Below are positions 29,357-35,871 of a stretch of DNA of 51,336 nucleotides, in pieces. Positions within the stretch are counted from its first letter, which is position 1, and the number at the start of each line of letters is the position of its first letter. A program made the translations under genes and the position numbers. The notes beneath the pieces are model-generated. The model worked only from the letters and a program-made list of their open reading frames with translations, was not told the DNA's origin and ran no database searches. Source of the DNA: Roseiflexus sp. (GTDB lineage Bacteria > Chloroflexota > Chloroflexia > Chloroflexales > Roseiflexaceae); the NCBI GenBank assembly GCA_017743475.1, contig JAGHYV010000030.1, forward strand, positions 1 to 51,336. The letters run 5' to 3'.

Positions 29357-29563
29357 TCAGCGCGCCCGGTACATTGTGCGCAGGCACCTGGTGCAAACCT
29401 TGATCTGCACGTTCTTGCCATCGACCATGATCGTTGTTTTCTGCACATTCGGCTTGAAGGTGCGATTGGTCTTTGGCGCGCGCCGCGCCCAGCCACCCGA
29501 CGCTTTGTGCCGGATGTTTCGTCCAAAACTGACGCTCTTGTTACATATCATGCACTTTGCCAT
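29357..29563 (-). CDS. rpmB: 50S ribosomal protein L28
   Basis: 68 residues, usual for bL28. It has the Cys pair CMICNK at the start and CTRCLRTM at the end, a zinc-binding C+ form of L28. The SFGRNIRHKASGGWARR stretch and FKPNVQ are family motifs. GGGGGAG lies upstream of the ATG. It is monocistronic, with its own terminator. asp23 diverges from it upstream. Confidence 0.93.
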   Translation of the reverse strand: MAKCMICNKSVSFGRNIRHKASGGWARRAPKTNRTFKPNVQKTTIMVDGKNVQIKVCTRCLRTMYRAR

Positions 29564-29680: not shown

Positions 29681-30037
29681 ATGCACAATCGATCCACAAC
29701 CATCACTATTCCCGCCGGACGCGCAACCGTTGCTTCGCGCGCTATTGCATCGATTGCCGCCGCTGCTGCTCTGCGGTGCGATGGTGTGGCAGGGCTGAGT
29801 GATCCGCAGGGCCCGCCGATCATCCTACCGCCAGGCGACGCGCGGCATGGCATAGAGGTGCACCTGCACCAGAACTCTCTTGCCATCGATGTGCATCTGA
29901 TCGTGCAGGCAGGCAAGCCGATTGCTGATGTGGCGCATGCTGTACAGTCTGCAGTGCGCGCTGCGTTGTCCTTTGCGCTTGATCTCCCTGAGCCGATTGT
30001 CAACATTCGTGTGCAGGGGGTGGGAGGACGATCATGA
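29681..30037 (+). CDS. Asp23/Gls24 family (DUF322) envelope stress protein
   Basis: 118 residues. The motif ITIPAGRATVASRAIASIAAAAA at the start (core VASRAIASIAA) matches the family, where the usual I-x-D-E-V-I-x-I-A pattern lies. It contains LAIDVHLIVQAGKPI, also typical. Members associate with the membrane and are linked to cell-wall stress. The gene order asp23-dak(fakA)-degV-recG is a common one. Its stop overlaps the start of the fakA remnant (ATGA), so it was translationally coupled. Confidence 0.8.
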   Translation: MHNRSTTITIPAGRATVASRAIASIAAAAALRCDGVAGLSDPQGPPIILPPGDARHGIEVHLHQNSLAIDVHLIVQAGKPIADVAHAVQSAVRAALSFALDLPEPIVNIRVQGVGGRS

Positions 30038-31620
30038 CCAGCGCATGGCATGGTGAACACCCGCTGGAAGCGCCGCGCGCAGCCGCACACGATCTTGAGC
30101 GCCACACCGCGTTGCTCAGTGTGCTGAATGCGCTTCCGGTTCCCGATAGTAATACCAGGACGAATATGGCACTGACGCTCGGTGGGGCGTTGTGCGACAT
30201 TGCGCCGGATCCATTGTGCGGTGTGGTGGCGGAACGGATCGGGTATCGGGCAACACTGCGCGGTTGCGGCAATTCGAGTATCATTCTGTCGCAGATGCTG
30301 CGCGGCGCCGCCGCTGCTCTCGCCGGGCATCACCTGATGAGCGGGCGCGAAATGGCGGCAGCGCTGGTGCACGGAAGCGCGTGCGCATATGAAGTGGTGC
30401 TGTGCCTGTCGGAAGGCATGATGCTGACCGTCGTTCACTGCGCTGGTGAATCAGTATGGTGCGCAATTGCGTATGATGAGGCGTCGCTTGGCGCTGTGCT
30501 CGATACTGCGGTGCGTGAAGCGCGTGCAGCGCGGGCGCGAACGCTGCAACTGCTGGCGACCCTGCGCCAGGTAGAGGTGCGTCGATGCCGGTGGTCAGGG
30601 CATGCCGGTGCTGCTCGAAGCGCTGCTACGCTACGCGCGCAGCGAAACAGGCGAGTCGTTCACACTGCCGGTCGCAGCACCAGCGCCTGCCAGGGATCAT
30701 GCAGGTACAGTCGGCTACTGCACCAGTTTCGTGATCCATCAGGTGATGGTATCGCCGGACGCGATCCGGCGTGTGTTCGCAATGCTCGGCGACTCACCAG
30801 TGTTGCAGGGGATCAGGCGCTGGTGAAAGTTCATCTCCATCCTGCGACCAGGTGATGTGCTCAGCCAGACGCTGGAGTATGGTACACTCGACCAGGTCGG
30901 AGTCATCAACATAATAGATTTGCGACGTATTGCGTCGCGCTTAGGCGCACTGGCTCTTGTCGAACAGGCAGACGTTACAGCGGCGCCCGAAGCAGTCGGA
31001 TCATTGCACCAGCGTCAGGTGCCGGTTTTGCAGCAATCCTGCGTGATCTGGGCGCCAGCCTGGTACAGGAAATCGTAGCGACGCCCATGGTCGATGAATG
31101 GCCGGCGCTCTTTGCGCGTGTAGCGGAGCACGGCATGATTGTTCTGCCCAAGACCCACAGGCGCTGGAGACCGCGCGAAGTGCAGCTCAGCAGGTCAACC
31201 GACGCATCGATGTCGTACCGGCAATGTTGCCGCCCCCGGGGATTGCCGCGCTGCTGGCGCTGAACTTTCAAGCCGGGATTGATCAGAACGTCCAGATGAT
31301 GAAGGCGGCGGATCGCATGCAGGTGATCACGTTCGATGTGCAACAGGACAGCGACCGACGCATGCCTGCAAAAGCGCCGCAAGATGCGTATAATGTGAGC
31401 CATGCGCTGTGCTAGCACAGGGCAGGCGCTGCTGAGATCGCAACGCTGTACTATAGCTGGGGGCAATGTTGCCTGGGCTGAAATGCTGGTAGAAGCGGTT
31501 CGCGCCGCCTTCCCTGAGCTGCATATGGAAGTACACGCCGTCAGGCAACCTGGCGATAGCATGATCGTTCGTCGCGCTCGGATAGGTGCCGCCGTAAGTC
31601 CTGCAATCCTTGCGCATATA
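30034..31620 (+). pseudogene. fakA: DAK/FakA-like (fatty acid kinase subunit A), frameshifted and decayed
   Basis: The N-terminal part (30034 to ~30570) has the DhaL-type start LNALPVPDSNTRTNMALTL. The family motif is PDGDTGTN; here the Mg-binding acidic residue and the glycines are lost (SNTRTN). GNSSIILSQMLRG and SEGMMLTVV follow. The frame then changes: VDAGGQGMPVLLEAL continues in another frame at 30581. Further on VGYCTSFVIHQVMV and LVKVHLHPATR, then DVLSQTLEYGTLDQVGVINI, lie in shifting frames to about 31620 (WAEMLVEAVRAAFPELHMEV). FakA phosphorylates fatty acids bound by FakB (DegV). This copy cannot give a working kinase. Confidence 0.85.
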
Positions 31621-31631
31621 ATGAGAAACGT

Positions 31632-32480
31632 ATGGCAAGCATCAAAATCGTGACAGATAGTTCCTGCGACATTCCATTAAGTGTGGCGCACGAATTAGGC
31701 ATCGAAATCGTACCGATGCAGATCGTCATCGGTAATCAAAGTTACCGGGCTGGTCTCGACATTACTGCAGAGCAGTTCTATCAAGCCTTGCAGGAGAACC
31801 GGACTCAGGTTGTAGTGCAACCGCCGCCAATGGCAGTTTTTGAGCAACTCTACCGGCGTTTGACTCTGGAGTACGATCATATCTTTTCACTCCACCTTTC
31901 CAGTCGTCTTGTGCCAGCCTACCGCGTGGCGCAGCAGGCGCGCAACCGTTTGCCAGCGTCGTCGAGCCGGGTCGAAGTTATCGACAGTAAACTCCTCTCG
32001 ATGGCACTGGGCATGGTTGTGGTCCATGCAGCACGAGCGGCGCGCGATGGTGCAACCCCCGAAGAGACAGCACATCTGATCAACCTCCTGATACAACATT
32101 GCCATCTTGTGTTCTTCGTCGATACCATCGAGTATCTCGAACATAGCGGGCGCCTGGCGCTGGCAACAACCGTCCTCGGATCGATGCAACGCATCAAGCC
32201 GCTTCTCCTGCTCGACGACGGTGAAATCGTGCCCTACGAGCGCACCCGCACTCGTGCAAAAGCTATCGAAGGGTTGTACACCTTTATTGAGGACTTTCCG
32301 CGCGTTCGTGAAGTAACGGCGCTGTACGCTACAACGCCGGAAGATATCGAGAAGTTGCTGGAAAAGGTTGATCCGATCTTCCCACGTGATCGGGTACAGA
32401 CGATGCAGTTTGGTCCAAGCGTTGGTGCGTTTCTTGGACCGGGCGCGATGGGTGTGGCAGTGTTTGAGGGAATTGATTGA
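31632..32480 (+). CDS. DegV family protein (FakB-like fatty-acid-binding protein)
   Basis: 282 residues, full length. Motifs are IKIVTDSSCDIP at the N-terminus, FSLHLSSRLVPAYRVAQQA, DSKLLSMALGMVV, and the C-terminal VGAFLGPGAMGVA. The T-S-Q-P loop is replaced by VQPPPMAVFEQLY. In the fatty-acid kinase system FakB holds the fatty acid for FakA. FakA is broken just upstream, so this DegV either uses another FakA or has another role. A second DegV remnant starts 4 bases after its stop. Confidence 0.9.
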   Translation: MASIKIVTDSSCDIPLSVAHELGIEIVPMQIVIGNQSYRAGLDITAEQFYQALQENRTQVVVQPPPMAVFEQLYRRLTLEYDHIFSLHLSSRLVPAYRVAQQARNRLPASSSRVEVIDSKLLSMALGMVVVHAARAARDGATPEETAHLINLLIQHCHLVFFVDTIEYLEHSGRLALATTVLGSMQRIKPLLLLDDGEIVPYERTRTRAKAIEGLYTFIEDFPRVREVTALYATTPEDIEKLLEKVDPIFPRDRVQTMQFGPSVGAFLGPGAMGVAVFEGID

Positions 32481-32483
32481 CAT

Positions 32484-33330
32484 ATGTCGTCAGTTCGTGT
32501 CGTCGTCGATTCGACAGCCGACATACCTGCCAATGCCCGTGCTGCAAACCACATTTGTCGTCCTGGCTCTGCTGCATTGTCAGGGTGAGACGCCGCGCGA
32601 CGATATCGATATCAGCCGTGATGAGTACTATCGCTGGATCGCCTAACACGACGAACTTCCAACCACCTTACTTAGCGCCATCAGTTGGCATGTTCGAGGA
32701 GGTGTTCCGCAAGTTGACGTGCGACGGCAGCGCAGTTCTGTCGGGTAGCATTGCAGCTGGCTTGAGCACCACGTACAACGCCGCCGTACAGGCGGTGCGG
32801 CTGGTCGAGGCGTGTATCGTCTGCGTCGATAGCCATTCGATTGTCGTGCCCATTGCCCATCTGACGCTTGCTGCTGCGCGTCACCCGGCGCAAGGCGCAA
32901 CGCTGGAAGAATGCGGTTACCCTGGTCAAAACGTTGCATGAGCAGACGGTGGCATATGTGGCGCTTCAGACATTGCGCTATCTGGAGCCGGGGCGGGCGG
33001 ATCAGTCGCACGCTGGTGTCGCTCGGCGCGCTGCTCCATGTGAAGCTCGTTCTGGAAGTGCGCGACTCGCAGGTGTTGCCGGTTGAACGGATGCGCACCT
33101 GGCAGCGTGTTCCAACACAGTCGCTCGAACTGATGCAGGCGCGGGGCGCATACCAGAAATCGAGCATCGTACATACAATCAACCGCGCCGAGGTCGAATT
33201 GCTGGCAGATGCATGCGCTGCTGCGGGGTTGCTTGCACACGACCGCATCCGCACAGTGCAGATCGGTGCCGTGCCGGGAACCCATATGGGACCCGGCGCT
33301 CCGGGGATTACGGGGTTGTTGAACGCATGA
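32484..33330 (+). pseudogene. second DegV-family protein, decayed
   Basis: The start is clear (SSVRVVVDSTADIPA), but the frame is lost soon after. Later parts in other frames still show DegV blocks: DDIDISRDEYYRWI near 32600, TTNFQPPYLAPSVGMFEEVFRKLT near 32650-32720 (TT-xQP motif), RLVEACIVCVDSHSIVVPI, and SLGALLHVKLVLEVRD, ending with IGAVPGTHMGPGAPGI at 33255-33310. At least three frame changes are needed. It lies between the intact degV and recG. Confidence 0.85.
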
Positions 33331-33342
33331 CCCTGACAACGT

Positions 33343-35871
33343 ATGGATGGGAAAGAGCAGATCATTCGTCTTGGCAAATTGCTGGCAGAGGAAGAGCGTC
33401 GCGGGTGCGACGATAGCACCGTTGCAGGCGGATTGGAGCATTTTCTGACAACATGGCGCATGGAAGCTGGGGATGCTCTACGCTACGAGCCGGTGCAGCA
33501 GGCGCTTGAACTGCTTGCCGGATACGCGGTGCTCGATCAGCCAACTCGACGCGCGCGCGTCGGCATTGCACTCGAAAGCCTTCGCTCGTTGTTTCGTGCT
33601 CAACCGGCATCACATCTCTCAGCAGTGCCCCAGGTCACGACACCGACGCGCGCGCCAGCGCGCCGTTCACCCCGTCCTGCGCGCGCGTCAGCGCGCCCGC
33701 TTACACCTGACTCGCCGCTCGAAGATGTGCCGGGCATCACCCGCGTCATGGTGCAGTCGTTCCGGCGTCTTGGCGTGCGCACCGTGCGCGATCTACTCTA
33801 CCATTTTCCCCATCGTTACGATGATTTCACTTCGCGCCGCACCATCGCCGAACTGCAACCCGGTGCAGTCGAAACGATCATTGCCGAGGTGCTGGACGCG
33901 CGCACCGTGCCAATGAAGAGCGGCGGTACGCGGCTTGATGTACTGGTAGGCGACGAAACTGGCAAGCTGAAAGTCGTCTTCTTCCGTCAACCCTGGCTGG
34001 CGCAGCGTTTCACTGTGGGCGCAAAGGTGGTATTAAGCGGCAAGATCGGCGTCTACGATGGGTTGCGCCAGATGGCGTCACCCGAATGGCAACCGTTCAC
34101 CGACGATGACCTGATCCACGTTGGTCGTCTGGTACCAGTGCATCCGCTGACCCGCGGGCTGGTCGAGCGCAGCGCGCGCACCCTGATCAAACACGTGGTC
34201 GATAGGTGCGCCCCAATGCTGGAAGACCATCTTCCCCCAGCAGTACTCGAGCGCACCGGCTTGATGCCGTTGTCTCAGGCGATCGCTCAAATCCATTTCC
34301 CCGAAAGTCACGAGATGCTCGAACGGGCGCGCCGTCGCCTGGGATTCGATGAATTCCTCTTCATTCAGCTCGGCATCCTTCAGCGCAGAGTGGTCTGGCA
34401 GGCGCAGCAAGGGTACGCCATTAAGCGCCGCGACGATGTACACGAAGCGTTTCTCAGGCAGTTGCCATTTGAATTGACCAGTGCACAGGTACGAGCGGTG
34501 GAAGAGATTTTCGCTGATATGGAGCGCCCTGTACCGATGGCACGCCTGCTGCAGGGAGACGTGGGTAGCGGCAAAACGGTCGTCGCAGCTGCAGCCGCGC
34601 TTCAGGTCATCACTGCGGGTTTCCAGGTAGCGATCATGGCGCCGACCGAAATCCTGGCCGAGCAGCACTACCGCAGCTTGCGGGCGCTGCTCGGCAAAGT
34701 CCCTGTGCCTCGTGATGAGCGGCACGCCCTGTCGGATGATCTCGATCCCGAACAGCGAGAACGTCTGGAAGAGATCAGGCGCATCCTGGGCATGAGCGGC
34801 GATGACGATCTGGACGGACGTGGTGTGCGGGTGGCGTTGCTCACCGGCAGCCTCAGCGCGAAAGAGCGACGCCGCGTGCTGGAAGGCATTGCACGTGGTG
34901 ACATTGACCTGATCGTCGGAACGCATGCCCTGATCTCCGAAGGGGTACAGTATGCTGCATTGGGTCTGGCAGTCATCGATGAGCAGCATCGCTTCGGCGT
35001 CGAACAGCGTCAACGCCTGAGGAACAAGGGGTACAATCCGCATATGCTGGTGATGACGGCGACGCCGATCCCGCGCACGCTAACGTTGACCATCTACGGC
35101 GACCTCGATGTATCAGTACTTGACGAACTGCCGCCAGGACGCCAGGAAATCAAAACCCGCTGGATCACCACTGTCGAGCGCGAGAAGGCCTATCGCCACA
35201 TCCGGCGCGAAGTCGCAAAAGGGCGTCAGGCATTCGTCATCTGCCCGCTAGTCGACGAAAGCGAGAAGGTCGATCTTCCATCCGCTGAGGAAATGCATGC
35301 AACGCTGTCACGTGATGTCTTTCCTGACCTGCGTGTTGCTCTGATCCACGGCAAAATGACGCCCCGCGAGAAGGATGCAGTGATGATTGCCTTCCGCAAC
35401 CACGAATATGATATCCTGGTCGCCACTGCCGTGATCGAGGTTGGTATCGATGTTCCAAACGCCACCACGATCCTGATCGAGGGAGCGGAACGGTTTGGTC
35501 TGGCACAGTTGCACCAGTTCCGTGGGCGCGTGGGACGGGGCATTCATCAGAGTTATTGTATTCTCGTCTGCGACAAAGATCAGAACGATGTCACGCGCCA
35601 GCGCATGGAAGCAATGGAGCAGATCAGCGACGGCTTTCGCCTGGCAGAGATCGATCTACAACTGCGCGGGCCGGGAGAGTTCTTCGGCACCCGACAGAGT
35701 GGCACGCCTGATCTCAAAGTGGCGCAACTGGCGGATACGCGCCTGCTGCACACTGCGTACCGCGAAGCGCAGAAAATTCTCGCCGATGATCCGCACCTCG
35801 AACGCCCGGAACACGCGCTGCTACGCGCTAAAATGGACGAATTCTGGGTCGATGCAGTTCAGGCAGGGTGA
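33343..35871 (+). CDS. recG: ATP-dependent DNA helicase RecG
   Basis: 842 residues. A helical N-terminal extension and an Ala/Arg/Pro-rich linker (about 88-125) precede the wedge/OB domain (PGITRVMVQSFRRLGVRTVRDLLYHFPHRYDD, core LLYHFPHRYDD). The helicase core has Walker A LLQGDVGSGKTVVA, the DEQH box in VIDEQHRFGVEQRQ, MTATPIPRTL, and FRGRVGRGIHQSYC. RecG remodels stalled replication forks. The ATG at 33343 was chosen by length; the short linker start is not certain. A degenerate repeat follows at 35872-36000. Confidence 0.95.
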   Translation: MDGKEQIIRLGKLLAEEERRGCDDSTVAGGLEHFLTTWRMEAGDALRYEPVQQALELLAGYAVLDQPTRRARVGIALESLRSLFRAQPASHLSAVPQVTTPTRAPARRSPRPARASARPLTPDSPLEDVPGITRVMVQSFRRLGVRTVRDLLYHFPHRYDDFTSRRTIAELQPGAVETIIAEVLDARTVPMKSGGTRLDVLVGDETGKLKVVFFRQPWLAQRFTVGAKVVLSGKIGVYDGLRQMASPEWQPFTDDDLIHVGRLVPVHPLTRGLVERSARTLIKHVVDRCAPMLEDHLPPAVLERTGLMPLSQAIAQIHFPESHEMLERARRRLGFDEFLFIQLGILQRRVVWQAQQGYAIKRRDDVHEAFLRQLPFELTSAQVRAVEEIFADMERPVPMARLLQGDVGSGKTVVAAAAALQVITAGFQVAIMAPTEILAEQHYRSLRALLGKVPVPRDERHALSDDLDPEQRERLEEIRRILGMSGDDDLDGRGVRVALLTGSLSAKERRRVLEGIARGDIDLIVGTHALISEGVQYAALGLAVIDEQHRFGVEQRQRLRNKGYNPHMLVMTATPIPRTLTLTIYGDLDVSVLDELPPGRQEIKTRWITTVEREKAYRHIRREVAKGRQAFVICPLVDESEKVDLPSAEEMHATLSRDVFPDLRVALIHGKMTPREKDAVMIAFRNHEYDILVATAVIEVGIDVPNATTILIEGAERFGLAQLHQFRGRVGRGIHQSYCILVCDKDQNDVTRQRMEAMEQISDGFRLAEIDLQLRGPGEFFGTRQSGTPDLKVAQLADTRLLHTAYREAQKILADDPHLERPEHALLRAKMDEFWVDAVQAG

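Follow-up and report, generated by a model that had tools for sequence, protein, structure and literature searches.

Several bacteria carry more DegV (FakB) proteins than they apparently need. The closest described system is the fatty acid kinase of Staphylococcus aureus and Streptococcus, composed of FakA and FakB. In FakA, Asp38 and Asp40 of the DGDTGTN motif are described as magnesium-binding (PMC9136124). The carboxylate-binding residues of FakB are given as Thr62, Ser95 and His270 (PMC8892158), and Arg173 is reported to be required for the kinase reaction (PMC9136124); these two papers supplied the FakB residue set used here, in which Arg205 stands for membrane and FakA docking. A DegV protein of Streptococcus pyogenes, FakB4, has been reported to have no part in the incorporation of exogenous fatty acids (PMC10138225), an inference that was later doubted because other FakBs were present (PMC12594616). 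The DegV proteins of Bacillus subtilis (3fys) and Thermus (2dt8) were solved with bound fatty acid, according to the titles of the structures.

The DNA analysed here, referred to as the window, is a stretch of 51,336 nucleotides that forms one contig (C183) of the 4.97-Mb draft genome of a hot-spring Roseiflexus (G000). The locus of interest comprises the following features:

29357..29563, minus strand: open reading frame that we take to be rpmB, for ribosomal protein bL28; it borders the locus on the left and is conserved there
29681..30037, plus strand: asp23 (Asp23/YloU-type; PF03780, 55.7 bits), open, intact and constrained
30034..31631, plus strand: fakA remnant with seven frame-changing indels, one in-frame stop and PDSNTRTN in place of PDGDTGTN
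31632..32480, plus strand: degV1, intact, 282 amino acids, DegV fold (PF02645, 239.8 bits)
32484..33330, plus strand: remnant of degV2, the canonical FakB gene, with four frame-changing indels and one in-frame stop
33343..35871, plus strand: recG, intact; it forms the conserved border on the right

A first-pass annotation of this DNA had described asp23 and one degV as intact and the succession asp23-fakA-degV-degV-recG as otherwise conserved. Both statements hold, since asp23, degV1 and recG are all open on re-reading, and the order rpmB (minus strand), asp23, fakA, degV1, degV2, recG is intact in three further genomes of the genus (G001, G002 and G005). The same arrangement with small variations is found in many genomes of the taxonomic order, and rpmB lies to the left in most relatives. 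The asp23-fakA (yloU-yloV) succession also occurs in Firmicutes. The intact genus mates resemble the S. aureus and Streptococcus systems in having a FakA of 517-523 amino acids with DGDTGTN and a DegV2 with all compared ligand residues. The locus differs from these systems in that FakA and DegV2 of the window are pseudogenes, that the family has no PlsX, and that two degV genes adjoin fakA, one of them FakA-independent by its distribution.

We propose that a three-gene acyl-phosphate module, consisting of FakA, FakB (DegV2) and PlsY, has freshly been lost in the Roseiflexus of the window, and that DegV1 stands outside this module; we give this reading a probability of roughly 0.78. FakA would have phosphorylated the fatty acid held by DegV2, and PlsY would have used the resulting acyl-phosphate to acylate glycerol-3-phosphate. 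Because the family is without PlsX, FakAB looks like the only source of acyl-phosphate for PlsY. Once one member had failed, the others would have become useless, and fakA, degV2 and plsY would all have drifted; the drift is read from the sequences, and the order and trigger of the events are our reconstruction. DegV1 would not have been a member of the module; it is retained under strong selection after the loss. Judged from the genes, the decaying unit is thus an acyl-phosphate module spread over two contigs, and not fatty-acid uptake as such.

Alignment of the window's fakA to the intact copy of its closest relative, G002 (517 amino acids, passing TIGR03599 YloV), reveals nine indels within the gene, seven of them frame-changing, and four of the five indels in degV2 change the frame. 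Instead of a single uninterrupted frame spanning the DAK2, middle and FakA-like C domains, Pfam recognises in fakA only a weak Dak2 fragment (50.7 bits) and, in a different frame, a remnant of FakA-like_C (26 bits); the DegV profile matches degV2 in two pieces in two frames. The frameshifts reported in the first pass were therefore found again, as was the altered motif, in which the magnesium-binding pair Asp38/Asp40 is no longer complete, the Asp40 equivalent being Asn. It had been argued at that stage that relatives whose FakA is intact and yet shows the altered motif would speak against decay; the intact genes of the three genus mates all have PDGDTGTN.

The pattern of substitutions is specific to individual genes. 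Relative to G002, fakA and degV2 have dN/dS values of 0.60 and 0.39, as opposed to 0.034 for degV1, 0.105 for asp23 and 0.088 for recG, which is 95% identical between the two genomes; the value for degV1, a check proposed with the first annotation, indicates strong selection. Changes private to the window branch fall on codon positions 1, 2 and 3 in the numbers 43, 51 and 24 in fakA and 24, 24 and 12 in degV2, against 2, 2 and 28 in degV1, 2, 2 and 9 in asp23 and 10, 8 and 81 in recG (fakA versus degV1, Fisher p 3.4e-12). Compared with the nearest relative, first and second positions of fakA and degV2 have changed at the rate of neutral sites: in fakA they carry approximately 0.10 changes per site, and the third positions of its neighbours 0.10-0.12, which places the beginning of the loss near the split from G002. 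As the pattern is neutral-like in these two genes and constrained in their neighbours, the decay is, on codon-position evidence, gene-specific drift of fakA and degV2, and not regional sequencing noise.

The same evidence bears on the possibility that the cell has intact genes and that the frameshifts arose as errors of sequencing or assembly in a metagenome bin, as might be feared for a single assembly in 206 contigs. However, fakA, degV2 and plsY have changed evenly at all three codon positions, unlike the intervening and adjacent genes, errors would not leave degV1 untouched in the middle, and the same genes have been lost by deletions in a second genome, G003. This explanation is in large part refuted, in agreement with the earlier judgement that the lesions are not mere sequencing error, and we assign it a negligible chance.

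Comparison with close relatives, as had been advised, shows that fakA is intact in three genus mates and was lost separately in G003. In the latter genome the gap between asp23 and degV1 is 427 bases, versus 1599 in G002, fakA is reduced to C-terminal scraps and degV2 is internally deleted, with asp23, degV1 and recG open. In a RecG tree G000 pairs with G002, and G003 belongs with G001 and G005 (both groupings starred); the two fakA-less genomes are hence placed apart, and their losses are separate. A third loss in G004 was considered and rejected because recG is missing as well and plsY is intact, so that the locus is unassembled; G056 was set aside as likewise unassembled. Beyond the genus, asp23, fakA and degV2 are missing from g8, a reduced genus of this family, and from most members of the sister family f4, where the locus consists of rpmB-degV1-recG. 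The RecG tree requires seven changes of FakA state, and six on a smaller set of rows.

The DegV1 and DegV2 sequences fall into two separate groups (support 100 for each), and in each loss it is DegV2 that is gone and DegV1 that is kept. A full-length degV2 is present in 29 of the 30 FakA-bearing genomes, the exception (G016) ending at a contig edge, and in none of the FakA-less genomes of the locus type. By contrast, among the 82 genomes searched there are 42 rows of full-length DegV1 without FakA, including deep clades of f4 and g8. We also observed that asp23 is still constrained in both recent losses and is absent from the old ones (g8 and most of f4); it may leave the locus late, after fakA.

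These distributions speak to the view that DegV1 has no function without FakA and is retained by lag, or by its position in an operon before recG. Both losses within Roseiflexus (G000 and G003) are indeed recent, and degV1 directly precedes recG in FakA-less genomes. Nevertheless, changes on the window branch at codon positions 1 and 2 versus 3 number 4 versus 28 in degV1 and 94 versus 24 in fakA, and the persistence of the full-length protein extends to the deep FakA-less clades. Passive retention is accordingly very improbable. With regard to how degV1 might be expressed, an 18-base stretch containing TATAAT lies at 31370-31400 of the window, inside the fakA remnant and approximately 240 bases upstream of degV1, and is identical in all five Roseiflexus compared, both broken copies included. 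It could be a candidate internal promoter of degV1, as judged from its conservation; a consensus promoter scan for degV1 inside the fakA remnant found none (shuffles gave 0.3).

The first-pass annotation had offered a second FakA elsewhere in the genome as one way of accounting for the decay. Within the limits of the assembly this option can be excluded: a Dak2 profile search of the genome gave three matches, two of which adjoin a DAK1 dhaK gene and are thus dhaL, the third being the broken fakA, and no second FakA was found, so that DegV1 has no FakA partner there. A DegV profile search of the same genome returned only the two degV genes of the window. Two Dak2 matches near 75 bits in other genomes were also rejected as FakA. 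The one in G020 has a nearby open frame of only 122 amino acids, and the one in G029 has the wrong length and layout. The latter, a DAK2-only protein of 251 amino acids in a FakA-less genome (L170:1434-2189), scores approximately 70 bits to Dak2 and has GNSGDNM where FakA has DGDTGTN.

The other option put forward originally, that FakA function was lost and that the intact DegV persists for a different reason, is supported by the dN/dS of degV1 and by its survival in the FakA-less rows. Its extent was underestimated, however, as the loss reaches beyond the locus. The plsY gene, on another contig, is disrupted by stops and frame changes in two genomes only, G000 and G003; it is open in G001, G002, G004 and G005, and synteny puts the broken copies at the same genome position. 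The G3P_acyltransf domain scores 60.4 bits in G000, with an in-frame stop and frame changes, and 142-148 bits in the four open copies, so that an intact PlsY is missing from the genome of the window. Private changes at codon positions 1, 2 and 3 amount to 18, 21 and 14 in G000 and 21, 22 and 15 in G003, and to 3, 1 and 5 in G001, 4, 3 and 7 in G005 and 6, 5 and 12 in G004, all three with intact copies. Since plsY is broken as well, it is the acyl-phosphate branch that has been lost. What is new here is that plsY is broken in exactly the two Roseiflexus with a broken fakA, and that PlsX is absent family-wide (found in none of the 26 genomes of the family). No description of this pattern of loss was found in a limited search of titles and abstract openings in the literature on DegV, fatty acid kinase and PlsX/PlsY in Chloroflexi.

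A wider survey covered the 82 genomes, with FakA scored by PF13684 and, in 30 genomes, also by long Dak2 frames, which added G013; in the remaining f4 and g8 genomes FakA absence is based on PF13684, which missed the divergent FakA of G013, and on locus layout. Genomes with FakA have both PlsX and PlsY in 17 cases, PlsX without PlsY in one and PlsY without PlsX in 12. Those without FakA have both in three, PlsX only in two, PlsY only in one and neither in 41. In the five remaining genomes the locus is unassembled. For the 54 PlsX-less genomes with an assembled locus, FakA and PlsY are both present in 12 and both absent in 41, one has PlsY without FakA and none FakA without PlsY; the two states thus agree in 53 of 54, a count not corrected for relatedness, the tree needing only six to seven changes of FakA state. 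FakA-less genomes that keep PlsY together with PlsX and one DegV, at an assembled locus, are G046, G048 and G064. The simplest reading of these gene contents is that PlsY is kept where a source of acyl-phosphate, PlsX or FakA, is retained. There are four exceptions. PlsY has no match in G034, which carries FakA and PlsX, and is missing from G045 and G058 despite their PlsX matches; the fourth, G067 (L119; family f3, 75% complete), has PlsY matches and a single divergent DegV in which every FakB residue compared is present, neither FakA nor PlsX having been found in this incomplete genome.

The absence of PlsX from all 26 family genomes and the retention of PlsY in 12 FakA-bearing ones could also mean that FakAB and PlsY are the main phospholipid route of the family, fed by fatty acids released by a thioesterase, and that G000 and G003 have swapped their acyltransferase. 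A thioesterase-fed Fak has been described for Enterococcus faecalis (PMC12288450). The repeated loss of the module argues instead that it is dispensable, which makes a standing second acyltransferase the simpler guess; we therefore regard the main-route account as possible but doubtful. In G000 and G003 a different G3P acyltransferase would in any case have to act in place of PlsY.

DegV1 is assigned to the DegV fold by its profile match and by its predicted structure. A model predicted by AlphaFold from 12 rows (pLDDT 80.9; a single-sequence model with pLDDT 43 was set aside) has its best matches in 2dt8, 3fys and FakB2 structures (TM 0.82-0.86; Foldseek to FakB2 6dj6, TM 0.85). The DegV proteins of B. 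subtilis and Thermus, at TM 0.82-0.85, differ from it in sequence (approximately 26-27% identity) and in the ligand pocket, where the positions equivalent to Thr62, Ser95 and His270 are occupied by V, V and F in Roseiflexus DegV1. With the NCBIfam FakB1 equivalog, DegV1 scores 133.5 bits against a cut-off of 350, and DegV2 of G002, at 157.6, is also below it.

FakB residues were compared in 102 rows, leaving out genomes with a partial or no full-length DegV (10 of the 82 have no full DegV1 row). DegV2 of FakA-bearing genomes has Thr62 (or Ser), Ser95, Arg173, Arg205 and His270 in all 29 rows, and Gly at Ser171 in all 29. In DegV1, Arg205 is kept in 72 of 72 rows, Thr62 in 22 of 30 rows with FakA and three of 42 without, and Arg173 in 26 of 30 and 23 of 42, respectively. 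The association of these changes with FakA loss is not significant (four independent pairs on starred branches). All five Roseiflexus rows share V, V and F in place of the carboxylate-binding residues and include genomes with and without FakA, which dates the changes in the pocket before the loss of FakA. DegV1 is thus predicted, from sequence and model, to be a protein of lipid-binding fold whose pocket had already departed from the FakB pattern by the time FakA disappeared, with a ligand and role that we can only propose.

DegV1 might yet be a working FakB for another kinase, or a carrier of acyl-phosphate from another enzyme. The copy in the window retains the Arg173 and Arg205 equivalents, so that a kinase role with another partner would be compatible, and the model matches FakB structures. 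Conversely, the Arg173 equivalent is missing in 19 of 42 FakA-less rows (four of 30 with FakA), 41 genomes lack not only FakA but also PlsX and PlsY, which are the other users of acyl-phosphate, and the DAK2-only protein of G029 lacks the remaining parts of FakA in length and layout. We consider such a role improbable. Given the strong selection under which DegV1 is retained once the module has gone, in the window as well as in several other lineages, its most likely role is a FakA-independent job in lipid binding or membrane transfer. More tentatively, DegV1 of Chloroflexales could be a lipid-transfer protein that works without FakA and is needed with or without the acyl-phosphate module; it would retain the docking-arginine motif nearly letter for letter, with a re-tuned head-group pocket, and might carry a ligand other than a fatty acid en route to phosphorylation. 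It would then resemble S. pyogenes FakB4, a DegV protein reported outside exogenous fatty-acid incorporation (PMC10138225), with the difference that the host of FakB4 keeps FakA and three other FakBs, whereas DegV1 survives without any FakA.

Pseudogenes as such are ordinary, and it is the joint and repeated loss, together with the strict retention of one DegV, that is of interest. Where PlsX is absent, FakA, FakB and PlsY act as one unit, which offers a natural test of the source of acyl-phosphate for PlsY. The FakA-less lineages are natural knock-outs, in which FakA, its FakB and PlsY are gone and one DegV remains under strong selection, and they bear on the question of whether any DegV protein works without FakA.
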